Shown one piece after another: positions 2,329 through 31,398 of a stretch of 41,216 bases of DNA. Origin of the DNA: a virus; the IMG/VR virus record IMGVR_UViG_3300020274_000010, positions 1 to 41,216 of that record; one strand, given 5' to 3'. Under the pieces are notes generated by a model, which saw only the letters and a list, made by a program, of their open reading frames with translations, searched no databases and had not been told where the DNA came from. A program made the position numbers and the translations under genes. Every line of letters begins with the position of its first letter. The stretch's first letter is position 1.

Positions 2329-3706
2329 ATTTAAGTTCATCGAATGGTTTCTTTTGGGTGGTAAAGTGTTTAACCAGATCCTTTTCAGCGAGGGTATTTT
2401 GACCAGAGTCAATAAGGTCAGTTTGTGCTGACTCCTCTACATCATACAGTCTCATCTTCGCTCTGTCAATACCAACACAAAAACGTTTGTTCAGTGTTGG
2501 ATCATTGTATCTATTCTTCAACTGCTTGACCATGATTTGATTCATCCCTTCAAGTTCTTCGGTAGAAATAAGAGCGAACATGAGGTCAGCAGTAGCAGGA
2601 AGACCGAAGGACTCACTGGTATCGGTAAGATCAACGTCAGTAGAACCAAACCCTGAGCGAGTAGTCTGAGTAGCAGTAACGATTGGTACGTTGCACTCGA
2701 CTGCGAGACCCCTAAGTTCTTCAGCGATTGCTTTGACATAGGTGTAACTGTTTACAATGGATCCTTTGTACCTTTGAGAGGCACAAATATTTAAGTAGTC
2801 TACAAAGATAATGTCAGGTTTGATACTTCTCTTCATAGCAAGGTCAGCAATCAAAGACTTAAAGTGTCCTACATGTGCTTGAGCAGTAGGATATTCTTTA
2901 ATGATTAACTTACCCTGTGTCTTTTTCCCCAGTTGCAGAATCTTCTTTTCAAACATCATGCGAGGTAATTCAGAGAGTTTCTGAATATTGATGTTCATAA
3001 GATTAGCATCAATCCTCTCTGCAATCTTTTCTTCTGCCATCTCACAAGTGATGTATAAAACATTCTTACCTTGTAGAAGCATACTTGATGCAACGTGACA
3101 CATAAACAGGGACTTACCAACCCCTGTACCTGCCAATGCTACATTCAAAGATTTGTTTACTAGTCCACCCTTAGTAATCTTGTTAAAGAATTCTAGATCA
3201 AAAGGAATCTTATCTTCCTTACGATGATAGTATTCAAAACGATCACCTGCATTGTCTAGGTAATCATGACCAACATTCTGATCGAAAGATACACCTAGTG
3301 CGTCTGAAAGAATTTGAGGAATGGCACCCTTATCCTTCTCGGAATCTTGACCGTCAGCAATCTTGACACTCTCCATAAGAGATAGGTAGATCGCACGCTC
3401 TTGACACCACTTTTCCGTAGTATCAACGATCCAATCATAGTCTGAGGGATCATCGGAAAGGACATTTAAAATCTCCAGAACAGATTTGAATTGCTCATCA
3501 GATAGATCATTCCTTTCCTGACACTCAATAGACAAAGCATTGAGAGAAGGTAGATTATCATACTGACTGATATACTCATGGATTTCCAGAAAGATAACCT
3601 TATGAGGTTTTTCAGTAAAGTATTCTACCTTAAGGAAAGGAAGAACCTTACGAGCGTACTTCTCATTATAAACGAGATTAGATAAAATCGTGAGTTCGAG
3701 TGACAT
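2321..3706 (-). CDS. 41: gp41-like replicative DNA helicase (461 aa)
   Basis: DnaB-family helicase that would unwind the fork ahead of gp43. The N-terminal domain (residues 1-150) is helical; the RecA-like core has Walker A GTGVGKS at 193-199, Walker B DIIFVDYL near 298-305, and the helicase motif ATQTTRSGFGS with its conserved Gln. Length matches T4 gp41 (475 aa). The start ATG overlaps the stop of the upstream oxygenase gene as TAATG. Its place beside uvsX and gp43 fits the cyanophage replication block. I see no separate gp61 primase or gp59 loader in the window. Confidence 0.93.
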   Translation of the reverse strand: MSLELTILSNLVYNEKYARKVLPFLKVEYFTEKPHKVIFLEIHEYISQYDNLPSLNALSIECQERNDLSDEQFKSVLEILNVLSDDPSDYDWIVDTTEKWCQERAIYLSLMESVKIADGQDSEKDKGAIPQILSDALGVSFDQNVGHDYLDNAGDRFEYYHRKEDKIPFDLEFFNKITKGGLVNKSLNVALAGTGVGKSLFMCHVASSMLLQGKNVLYITCEMAEEKIAERIDANLMNINIQKLSELPRMMFEKKILQLGKKTQGKLIIKEYPTAQAHVGHFKSLIADLAMKRSIKPDIIFVDYLNICASQRYKGSIVNSYTYVKAIAEELRGLAVECNVPIVTATQTTRSGFGSTDVDLTDTSESFGLPATADLMFALISTEELEGMNQIMVKQLKNRYNDPTLNKRFCVGIDRAKMRLYDVEESAQTDLIDSGQNTLAEKDLVKHFTTQKKPFDELKYD

Positions 3707-4272
3707 TAGAGATAGTGCAAATAGGTGCCAACGATGTACTTTTTATTGGACTGAGGTGGTAATCCCGCATGTCTATACATCCAAGTAGGAGGGAACAGGA
3801 GTATTCTACCACATCTGGGTTCAACTGTCACGTCCAATTTTGGAAAGTATGTTTCACCACCCCTTCCGACATCGTTTAGATACAAGAAACAAACAAGGAA
3901 ACGACGTGCACTGTTGTAGTCTTGTACATCAACATGATCTTTAAACTGATCATGTCCATTGTTTTGATAATACTTTAATCGTAATTCTTCAAAGCAATAC
4001 TTTGCAGGAAAGTCTGGACCTAACTCCAGTTCATCCATATACAATGATACTGCATCTACAAAGTAATCCTCTAGTTTGACATGAATGTCAGACCAAAGAG
4101 GATCTTTTGCTTTAAGTCTGTTTGTTAGGTTTAGTTGCGTGAAGGAAGGTCGCTGCTCTCTATCAATATACTCGCTGTTGGATTTTCCAAACGCTTCAAG
4201 TATCCTCTTACAAAGATCAGAGTCAACCAAGTTATCATACGATCTAACATAGTCTTTTAAATTAGTTGCCAT
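3706..4272 (-). CDS. 2OG-Fe(II) oxygenase, prolyl 4-hydroxylase type (188 aa)
   Basis: A jelly-roll dioxygenase of the P4H superfamily. The iron site is complete: H113 and D115 in KDHVDVQ, and the distal H168 in MYRHAG. K177/K178 in NKKYIVG is in position to bind the 2-oxoglutarate carboxylate. The core [16 protein letters not shown] is typical. The protein is single-domain with no signal peptide. It sits between uvsX and gp41, overlapping both, in the replication operon, unlike the other two oxygenases in the window. The substrate is unknown; such phage enzymes are often guessed to hydroxylate proteins or modify virion or host targets. Confidence 0.85.
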
Positions 4273-29396: not shown

Positions 29397-29696
29397 TTAA
29401 TCTCTCTGCCTCCAGTCATCGCTACGTTCTTGATGAAACCAATCTACAATTTCGTCTGGTCCATTGAAACCCCTTTTGTGATTACTTGAATCGGGGTCTC
29501 CAATATTCAAGTGATTAAGAAAAGAATCGTCAGGATTCGTATTCATTCTTCTTGCTGTGTTTAACATTCCTCTCGCACTTGTATTTGCCTTTGCTAATTT
29601 TTGTGCCCAGATCATGTCTTCTATAGAAACATCTTGACCTGCTGCGATTGATTTACAAATTCCTTCTAAACGAAGACGATACTGAGTAGATAACAT
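29397..29696 (-). CDS. Conserved hypothetical protein (99 aa)
   Basis: A charged helical protein: an N-terminal YRLRLEGICKSIAAGQDVS, a middle ARGMLNTARRMN, and a C-terminal PDEIVDWFHQERSDDWRQRD with several Trp. The gene starts 16 bases after the terminator that closes the candidate ncRNA, with no clear promoter or Shine-Dalgarno of its own, so it depends on read-through or an unseen promoter. Unknown function. Confidence 0.68.
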   Translation of the reverse strand: MLSTQYRLRLEGICKSIAAGQDVSIEDMIWAQKLAKANTSARGMLNTARRMNTNPDDSFLNHLNIGDPDSSNHKRGFNGPDEIVDWFHQERSDDWRQRD

Positions 29697-29711
29697 ACAA
29701 AAAATGGTATT

Positions 29712-29736
29712 AAAAAAGGACTAACTCCTTAGTCCT
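29712..29736 (-). terminator. Intrinsic terminator closing the candidate ncRNA
   Basis: Perfect 8-base-pair stem AGGACTAA/TTAGTCCT (29717-29724 and 29729-29736) with a 4-base loop, followed on the minus strand by six T. No gene ends just before it; the nearest transcript upstream is the ncRNA region. Confidence 0.85.
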
Positions 29737-29954
29737 ACTACTTATAATATTAAGAAGGGAGGGTGATTGGATTACTTCATACCAACATAACCAGGGAATC
29801 GCTAAAGCGAAATTTAATACTGGTTAACTAGACACCTCTTGGTCAGAGTTCAATCCTTTAGGGATTGCGAGCACCACCTCTGAGTCTATACATTACCCCG
29901 CCTATTTCCAACAGGGTTGTTCTGTCACACCCGTGTCAATTCCGTCGAATCAAC
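29737..29954 (-). ncRNA. Candidate structured non-coding RNA downstream of gp23
   Basis: The 322-base gap between gp23 and the next gene has no plausible protein frame. It holds, on the minus strand, a promoter, about 220 bases of structure and a terminator. Two nested hairpins are clear: TCAGAG/CTCTGA (29878-29883 with 29843-29848) enclosing CAATCC/GGATTG; and TAACCAG/CTGGTTA (29820-29826 with 29788-29794) enclosing TCGCT/AGCGA. The 5' part can form GGGT/ACCC with an overlapping ACAG/CTGT pairing, a possible pseudoknot. The 5' end carries ATTCGACGG. No tRNA fold with CCA is seen. Confidence 0.62.
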
Positions 29955-29960
29955 ATTTAT

Positions 29961-29989
29961 AATATAACATAAAAAAAGAGGGACGTCAA
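29961..29989 (-). promoter_or_regulatory. Host-type promoter of the candidate ncRNA
   Basis: TTGACG (29984-29989) lies in the loop of the gp23 terminator; 17 bases further is TATATT (29961-29966). Predicted RNA start near 29954. A late-like TATAAATG overlaps the end of the -10 region. Confidence 0.6.
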
Positions 29990-29997
29990 GTCCCTCT
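29971..29997 (-). terminator. Intrinsic terminator of gp23
   Basis: Stem AGAGGGAC/GTCCCTCT (29990-29997 with 29977-29984), five-base loop, then a T tract (seven T in all, the first pairing at the stem base). It begins 21 bases after the gp23 stop and ends the capsid transcript. Confidence 0.9.
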
Positions 29998-30018: not shown

Positions 30019-31398
30019 TTACATGAGGTTGGCAACTTGTACACGTCTGTAGTACTTGTTAGCATTCGCTGTAAGTGCACCAGAACCTTGAGTAAGTCCG
30101 CCTGAGAATGGGTTAGAGACCATGCCGTAACGAGTCTTGAAACCAATTTTTGGTTGGAAGGTGTTAGGGTTGATTGCTCTAACTTGCTGCAATGGAACGT
30201 AAGGGCAGTAGAATAATCCTGCGTCATAAGGAGAAGTACCCTTATAACCTGCAACATAGAAGTGCTTATCAGCAACGTTAGCAGAGTAAGGATCAACGTA
30301 AACCTTGATGCGTCCGTTAAGAGTACCAACAAGAGTAGAGGAAGTATCGTCTACACCAGTTAAGGCGTTGTTACCCTGTAAACCAGGAGCATAGTCAAGG
30401 ACACCTGCCATACCGAGAGCAGAAGCAACGTCTGCAGAGCAGATCAAGATGTTGCCCTTCCCGCGACGAGTTTGCTGACCGATAGCGTTAGCATCTCTTT
30501 CGATCTGGAACAGAAGTCCTTTGAACTTCTCAACAGACCATCTACCGTTTGAGTCAACATCGAGGTCGAAGATACCACCGTTAGCAGTATTGTTCTGAGC
30601 ACCTGCAACAGCGTTAGTGTAGATGGTACGAACAACTTCACGGTTGATTTCAGCAAGGATCTCAGTTGAGAGAATGTTGCTCAACTCTTGCTCTGCATCA
30701 AGACCGTGAATTGCTTTCAAGTCTTGAGCAAGTTCGATGCTGTACTCTGCTTTCAACGCTCTTGCCTTGGCAGTTACAGTCACCTTCTCGATGGAGAAAC
30801 CCATCTCTCTGAACGCAGTGTTAGATGCACTGTCGTCTAAACCTTCAACGGTTGAAGTAGACATGCCTTGAGCATCGCCTGTTAGTTCGTAAGTTCCAGG
30901 AGAACCATCGTTAAGAACAGCAGGGTTGTTGCCTTCAGCGTCGTTGTTTGCAGAACTGGAAGCACCAGGATCGTAAGAAGAACCTGCACCACCAGAGAAA
31001 CCTGCGTTAGGCTCATTGAAGAATGCTTCGTCGTAACCAGATGCGTTAGGATCTCTTTCGCTACCGTAGTTAGTACGCATCGCAAAGATAAGTCCAGTAG
31101 GACCTGTCATTGGTTGAACACCCGCGATGTCATAGGCGATCAACTGAGGCATTGATCTTCTGATCAATGAAATGAGCACTGGGTCGAAACCTGCAACAGG
31201 ACCTGTGGCGGTGCTGCTACCAGTGTAACCAGTGGTTTGAAGAGTTTCAGAAAGAATCTGACCTTCTTCGATTTGTGCTTTTTCTTGGTTTTCTAAGAGT
31301 TGAGCGACAACACCTTTCTTATAAGAGTCACCGATCTCAGGGAGAGCGTCGTGATTAAGAACGGGTGCCCACTTCTCTTGTAGTTTTTGAACGGTCAT
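30019..31398 (-). CDS. 23: gp23-like major capsid protein (459 aa)
   Basis: HK97-fold capsid subunit. The N-terminal 50-60 residues are helical, probably the part removed by gp21 during maturation; then FDPVLISLIRRSMPQLIAYDIAGVQP in pieces, GLIFAMRTNYGS, and the C-terminal GFKTRYGMVSNPF typical of cyanophage gp23. AAAGGT precedes the ATG. Length is shorter than T4 gp23 (521 aa), as in its relatives. It is followed by a strong terminator, as expected of the most expressed late gene. Confidence 0.96.
   Translation of the reverse strand: MTVQKLQEKWAPVLNHDALPEIGDSYKKGVVAQLLENQEKAQIEEGQILSETLQTTGYTGSSTATGPVAGFDPVLISLIRRSMPQLIAYDIAGVQPMTGPTGLIFAMRTNYGSERDPNASGYDEAFFNEPNAGFSGGAGSSYDPGASSSANNDAEGNNPAVLNDGSPGTYELTGDAQGMSTSTVEGLDDSASNTAFREMGFSIEKVTVTAKARALKAEYSIELAQDLKAIHGLDAEQELSNILSTEILAEINREVVRTIYTNAVAGAQNNTANGGIFDLDVDSNGRWSVEKFKGLLFQIERDANAIGQQTRRGKGNILICSADVASALGMAGVLDYAPGLQGNNALTGVDDTSSTLVGTLNGRIKVYVDPYSANVADKHFYVAGYKGTSPYDAGLFYCPYVPLQQVRAINPNTFQPKIGFKTRYGMVSNPFSGGLTQGSGALTANANKYYRRVQVANLM

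Follow-up and report, generated by a model that had tools for sequence, protein, structure and literature searches.

The stretch behind the major capsid gene gp23 in a 41-kb viral contig of a T4-like cyanophage (the window, the whole 41,216 nucleotides that were analysed) raises the question of whether it carries a free-standing RNA gene or the leader of the gene that follows. Read along the minus strand from 30019 to 29696, the region comprises the gp23 stop, a terminator, a promoter, a 200-base RNA, a second terminator and the start of a gene for a 99-aa protein (Table 1). The original prediction placed a host-type transcription unit without a protein here, with a TTGACG-17-TATATT promoter and an 8-bp second terminator; both are found on the minus strand, and the predicted transcript ends, 29954 and 29712, agree with the ends of the unit to within about a base. 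The −35 box of the promoter sits within the loop of the gp23 terminator. The gp23 protein of the window is 97.4% identical to that of phage P-RSM1, and a Pfam search of the 99-aa downstream protein returned no match.

Table 1. Features of the gp23–manA region of the window; all positions are those of the window.
Feature	Position	Strand	Basis
gp23, major capsid protein, upstream neighbour	30019..31398	minus	phrog_138, E 6e-178
gp23 terminator, 8-pair stem AGAGGGAC/GTCCCTCT, loop TTGAC (stem-loop 29997-29977), then T-run	29971..29997	minus	sequence
Sigma-70-type promoter TTGACG-17-TATATT (TTGACG 29989-29984, spacer 17 bases, TATATT 29966-29961)	29961..29989	minus	same promoter, same place in 107/114 unique manA loci
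manA RNA (RF01745), full length; start expected near 29955	29756..29955	minus	Rfam model 1-192; covariation
5′ hairpin of manA (UGUUGA/UUGACA)	29934..29955	minus	Rfam alignment; 6/6 pairs covary (helix 1)
Closing helix of multibranched core, 5′ strand GGGUG	29928..29932	minus	pairs with 29761-29765
Closing helix of multibranched core, 3′ strand CACCC	29761..29765	minus	Rfam alignment and covariation
manA-unit terminator, 8-pair stem AGGACTAA/TTAGTCCT, loop GGAG (stem-loop 29736-29717), then T-run	29711..29736	minus	pair probability
Next gene, 99-aa protein, behind terminator	29397..29696	minus	phrog_507, E 4e-47

The RNA belongs to a described family. The original prediction knew of no described RNA at this site and proposed an Rfam search; the search matched RF01745, manA, with 123.6 bits (cut-off 55.2, E 6.7e-32), and the statement that the RNA was undescribed has to be withdrawn. 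Judged by this match, the window RNA is a full-length manA and not a new RNA. The family was found in marine metagenomes and T4-like cyanophages and published as a riboswitch candidate, entered in the authors’ table as cis-regulatory ‘Y’ and riboswitch ‘y’ (Weinberg et al. 2010, PMC2864571); the Rfam type of RF01745 is Cis-reg. On the plus strand, a hit to STnc50 was dismissed as a chance match (20.7 bits against an Rfam cut-off of 55).

The window alone is not decisive, because its single-sequence fold reaches a z-score of only −2.1 and the promoter count in the region (11 found) is close to the shuffled mean (8.9 expected). The unit is judged real because the score of the manA covariance model and the covariation among homologues settle the matter. 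In an alignment of 82 homologues, which was fitted to the structure and is hence biased towards it, 92.2% of the pair cells are standard and changes on both sides occur at 36 of 52 pairs; neither value was reached in any of 500 shuffles. The covariation score is 0.417 versus 0.127 in the shuffles, none of the 500 being as high, and sliding the pair partners by 1–3 columns lowers the paired cells to 39–48%. The closing helix (helix 2) is 100% paired, with an A-U to U-A change observed, and the weakly kept parts are the middle of helix 4, and helix 10. Conservation and compensatory changes, for which a covariation analysis had been suggested at the outset, are thus present among these homologues. 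The claim of a structured RNA stands on both the covariation and the Rfam match, but the two nested hairpins then proposed give way to a 5′ hairpin and a five-pair closing helix round a multibranched core.

The loop–loop pseudoknot drawn for manA carries a question mark from its authors (Weinberg et al. 2010, PMC2864571), and the pairing in question is probably that of UGGU with ACCA. Both candidate loops are nearly invariant, which leaves no covariation to score, and the search motif fixed one of them.

Whole-record searches with RF01745 found manA in 12 of 27 named phage genomes, with exactly one copy in each: P-RSM1, P-RSM4, P-TIM40, S-SSM7, S-SSM4, metaG-MbCM1, P-RSM6, P-HM1, P-SSM2, P-SSM4, ACG-2014f and Mosig. 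The same searches found none in the 15 other named phages, including Syn9 and S-PM2. The sites in the named genomes are unrelated, lying behind gp23, pstS, regA, hypothetical genes or tRNAs. A strict motif derived from the RNA alone retrieved at least 120 stretches in IMG/VR and five in genome assemblies, and a covariance model built from nine sequences confirmed manA in every motif locus searched. The working set comprises 122 full copies with 118 distinct sequences; many of the IMG/VR loci are related to one another, so the counts are not independent, and a few loci entered the set through gp23 or DNA similarity to the window, the rest through the RNA motif. A first, loose motif scan (L002–L121) was discarded, as it gave chance matches only, with manA in 0 of the 50 records tested; the stricter motif returned real loci only.

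Several individual records deserve mention. Contig L298 carries manA at 116–315 and 3636–3836, within 4 kb, and is the sole two-copy contig in the sample. The Pelagibacter phage Mosig (L367, 108164–108371, minus) has a weak match above the cut-off (64 bits) upstream of a putative rubrerythrin gene. Two contigs of bacterial assemblies, L338 (NZ_RMVE01000006.1, Nonlabens xiamenensis; 188 kb) and L340 (Prochlorococcus AG-418-C09; 189 kb), also contain manA; the Nonlabens contig has a copy matching the one in phage P-TIM40 (188.6 kb), and both contigs are probably cyanophage genomes. Three hypothetical proteins in GenBank overlap manA, namely SSSM7_180 (S-SSM7, 151441–151572), PHM1_121 (P-HM1, 112705–112881) and PSSM4_169.1 (P-SSM4, 164884–165057), and are probably not genes. 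Two loci have a glutamine riboswitch (RF01739) a short distance downstream of manA, at L297:1194–1242 (minus) and L315:3679–3763 (minus).

A sigma-70 promoter with at least 10 of the 12 consensus bases and a spacer of 16–18 precedes manA in 107 of the 114 unique loci that have at least 60 bases upstream. Mononucleotide shuffles attain this score in 0.35%, and the region 61–120 bases upstream never does. The consensus of the 114 loci is TTGACA, 16–18 bases, TATAAT and then ATATT, and the gap between the −10 box and the manA start is exactly 5 bases in most of them. Loci L253 and L317 have the same promoter shifted by a few bases, which we ascribe to the model having placed the RNA start differently. 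At L335 a tRNA-Thr ends at the base before manA, in place of the promoter, and at L279 a tRNA-like end, seen by eye and not called by ARAGORN, lies directly upstream. The promoter accompanies manA away from gp23 as well (S-SSM7, S-SSM4, P-TIM40); promoter, RNA start and fold recur together in more than 100 phage loci, which bears out the host-type unit first proposed. Early expression of manA can soundly be inferred from a promoter of the sigma-70 type.

A T4-type late promoter, TATAAATG at 29956–29963, would instead make the RNA a late product. TATAAAT does stand just upstream of the window RNA, and TATAAATA occurs in 8 of 114 loci. However, the closest relative, P-RSM1, has TATATCTG at this place, and the consensus of the 114 loci has the TATAAT and ATATT given above, with TTGACA 16–18 bases upstream. 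The late promoter was rejected on these two comparisons and is considered highly improbable.

In the window, the sigma-70-type promoter is fused with the gp23 terminator. A scan detected a terminator behind gp23 in 96 of 97 gp23 loci, the first survey of gp23 relatives having consisted of the best 80 matches. Among gp23 loci without manA, 90 of 91 have no TTGAC downstream, and the usual terminator loop is TTCG; the exception, S-SM1, has TTGAC behind an ordinary TTCG terminator, outside the loop. By comparison, TTGAC is at the place of the terminator loop in all six gp23 loci with manA, the window being the seventh; in metaG-MbCM1 it lies within an imperfect hairpin that was missed by the scan. 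The sharing of bases between terminator loop and −35 box, to which the original prediction drew attention, is therefore present, and TTGAC in the gp23 terminator loop is specific to gp23 loci bearing manA. Over all sites, 50 of 114 manA loci have TTGAC within a hairpin, in either its loop or its arm, with a T-run behind it.

The composite of terminator and −35 box also occurs elsewhere in cyanophages, at 25 sites in 28 records versus one for the reversed pattern, and several of these sites are in phages without manA. Examples, each followed by a −10 box, are W08:37529, W18:176429, W22:55527 and L377–L392. The genes behind some composites looked by eye like high-light-inducible, helicase-like or glutaredoxin-like ORFs. 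Judged by its distribution in these records, the terminator whose loop holds a −35 box is general among cyanomyoviruses and stands upstream of other genes too. Such a fusion explains how an early unit fits inside a late gene cluster.

On the published reading, manA lies in the 5′ UTR of the gene that follows and acts on it in cis, probably as a riboswitch; in the window the terminator at 29717–29736 would be the expression platform for the 99-aa gene. This is the original view of the family (Weinberg et al. 2010, PMC2864571) and agrees with its Rfam type, and the highly conserved loops resemble an aptamer. In about half of the loci manA runs into an ORF without a terminator or tRNA; in many the ORF is gp32 or talC and begins 6–45 bases behind manA. 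From their first residues, these ORFs often resemble gp32 or transaldolase, and thyX and purS also occur, all the names (gp32, talC, thyX, purS) being assigned by eye, without a statistical test. Judged in this way, the favourite downstream genes are non-random, as they would be for a cis-regulator. The promoter at the RNA start does not decide between the readings, as it would be expected of a leader as well.

The riboswitch reading fits less well with what follows manA at the other loci. A hairpin with a T-run is present within about 95 bases behind manA in 45 of 117 loci, versus 3–5 in dinucleotide shuffles. In 7 of 113 loci a tRNA instead of an ORF follows directly (the tRNAs were confirmed for these seven), and a terminator or tRNA lies directly behind manA in 49 of 113. 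In S-SSM7 a tRNA-Gly starts at the last base of manA. In ACG-2014f (L366:1426–1784) tRNAs stand on both sides: a tRNA-Arg ends at 1499, manA (a divergent copy of 90.1 bits) occupies 1501–1711 and a tRNA-Asn starts at 1713. With gaps of one base, both ends of this RNA would come from tRNA processing, and no ORF lies directly behind it to be regulated. As to position, the place of a 5′ UTR leader is not the one occupied, as a terminator intervenes in the window and tRNAs follow elsewhere.

Nor does the terminator behave as an expression platform. In full transcripts the terminators behind manA form with a mean pair probability of 0.90, and that of the window with 0.96, no antiterminator being favoured and no sign being seen of a terminator that excludes the aptamer fold. 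Pairing of the 5′ arm of the terminator with manA was significant at the 5% level in 4 of 45 loci versus 2.25 expected, with no excess over shuffled arms, and an attenuator with an antiterminator is unsupported, the pairing being no better than in shuffles. Moreover, the downstream genes vary, each named genome has a single copy, and the gene behind the window manA is without a known metabolic function. A riboswitch acting on the next gene is, in our estimate, unlikely.

A slightly better, though still doubtful, alternative is dual use, with manA a stand-alone product where a terminator or tRNA follows and otherwise a leader for gp32, talC or other early genes. Both kinds of site coexist in the sample, and TATAAATA, found in the promoter region of 8 loci that all lie upstream of gp32-like ORFs, could add a second promoter class. 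However, an RNA gene from which transcription simply reads through into an early operon would explain the ORF class equally well. We keep a dual role open for the loci leading into ORFs, where manA may act in cis.

What favours an RNA gene over a switch is that tRNAs adjoin manA at some loci and terminators follow it at others, that each named genome has a single copy and that the neighbouring genes change. In the window, manA is likely to be an independent RNA gene, an ‘RNA moron’ between late structural genes. A promoter and a 3′ end of its own, which define a stand-alone small RNA gene, are found in the window and in about half of the loci, and the sequences suggest that, at most loci, manA is organised as a small RNA gene in its own right, with a separate promoter and, in many cases, a separate stop signal. 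In the window, gp23 transcripts would stop at the terminator that holds the −35 box in its loop. Host RNA polymerase with a sigma-70 factor would start at the strong promoter, with the opening base of the 5′ hairpin, near 29955, as the first base of the RNA. Transcription would end near 29711, at the terminator belonging to the unit, and the product would be a compact RNA of about 200–245 bases. The second terminator would keep the next gene out of the early transcript, and in other phages the same RNA would be trimmed out between tRNAs.

Directly behind manA, about a fifth of the loci carry a further conserved element, RACCUAAGAUGCAACU-loop-AGUsGGGCAGAUGGUy (L393–L490 and at least 20 manA loci, e.g., L410:1875–1930, plus strand); the window is without it. 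A scan for this element alone returned 118 viral stretches. The manA closing helix lies upstream of it in 82 of 83 distinct copies, nearly always 6–18 bases away; the lone copy without this helix is probably that of L437, a locus truncated by the contig end. Among the newly listed element loci, the covariance model found manA in 59 of 60. The outer pair of the element is G-C in 62 copies and A-U in 21, with no mismatch. A mere terminator was rejected as an explanation, since a T-run follows only 38 of the 83 copies, and five loci carrying the element gave no Rfam match for it. By its sequence and placement the hairpin is probably an unlisted 3′ domain of manA, new here.

Family membership, fold, the promoter and its position, the terminators, the tRNA junctions and the single copy per genome, as read from the sequences, are consistent with a stable stand-alone RNA that would be made early and act in trans, its partner being, for example, a metabolite or a protein of the host or the phage. 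No transcript data for manA came up in the literature; the accessible portion of the P-HM2 RNA-seq paper counts intergenic reads and does not report this locus (PMC5082946). For the family as a whole, we see about an even chance that manA is not a riboswitch but an RNA gene of marine T4-like phages that is mobile, expressed early and active in trans: a moron-like unit with its own promoter and often its own 3′ end, which in many phages is extended by a second conserved hairpin absent from databases. Since 2010 manA has counted as an orphan riboswitch candidate; should it prove to be a free RNA, experiments that look for a ligand controlling the downstream gene would be misdirected. T4-like phages abound in the sea, and an RNA that is made early and occurs once per genome, at sites that differ between phages, could plausibly serve in host takeover.

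The window RNA and the RF01745 family are alike in their helices, in the T4-like cyanophage group and in the full-length match above the cut-off. They differ in that manA has been described as a putative 5′ UTR element, whereas the unit in the window brings a promoter and a terminator of its own and is not linked to an mRNA. The estuarine T4-like cyanophage S-CREM1 carries manA at 100.6 bits, the same family as the window RNA, but its published description labels it a cis-regulatory gene (PMC9964418). The wcaG, PhotoRC-II and glnA (glutamine) RNAs are, like manA, structured RNAs of cyanophages, but their models and folds differ from manA, with no overlap with the window RNA. As cited via PMC12197685, CfrI of phage S-PM2 is an antisense RNA tied to psbA, not manA, and the S-PM2 genome is without manA; it is nevertheless, like the window RNA, a non-coding RNA gene of a T4-like cyanophage.
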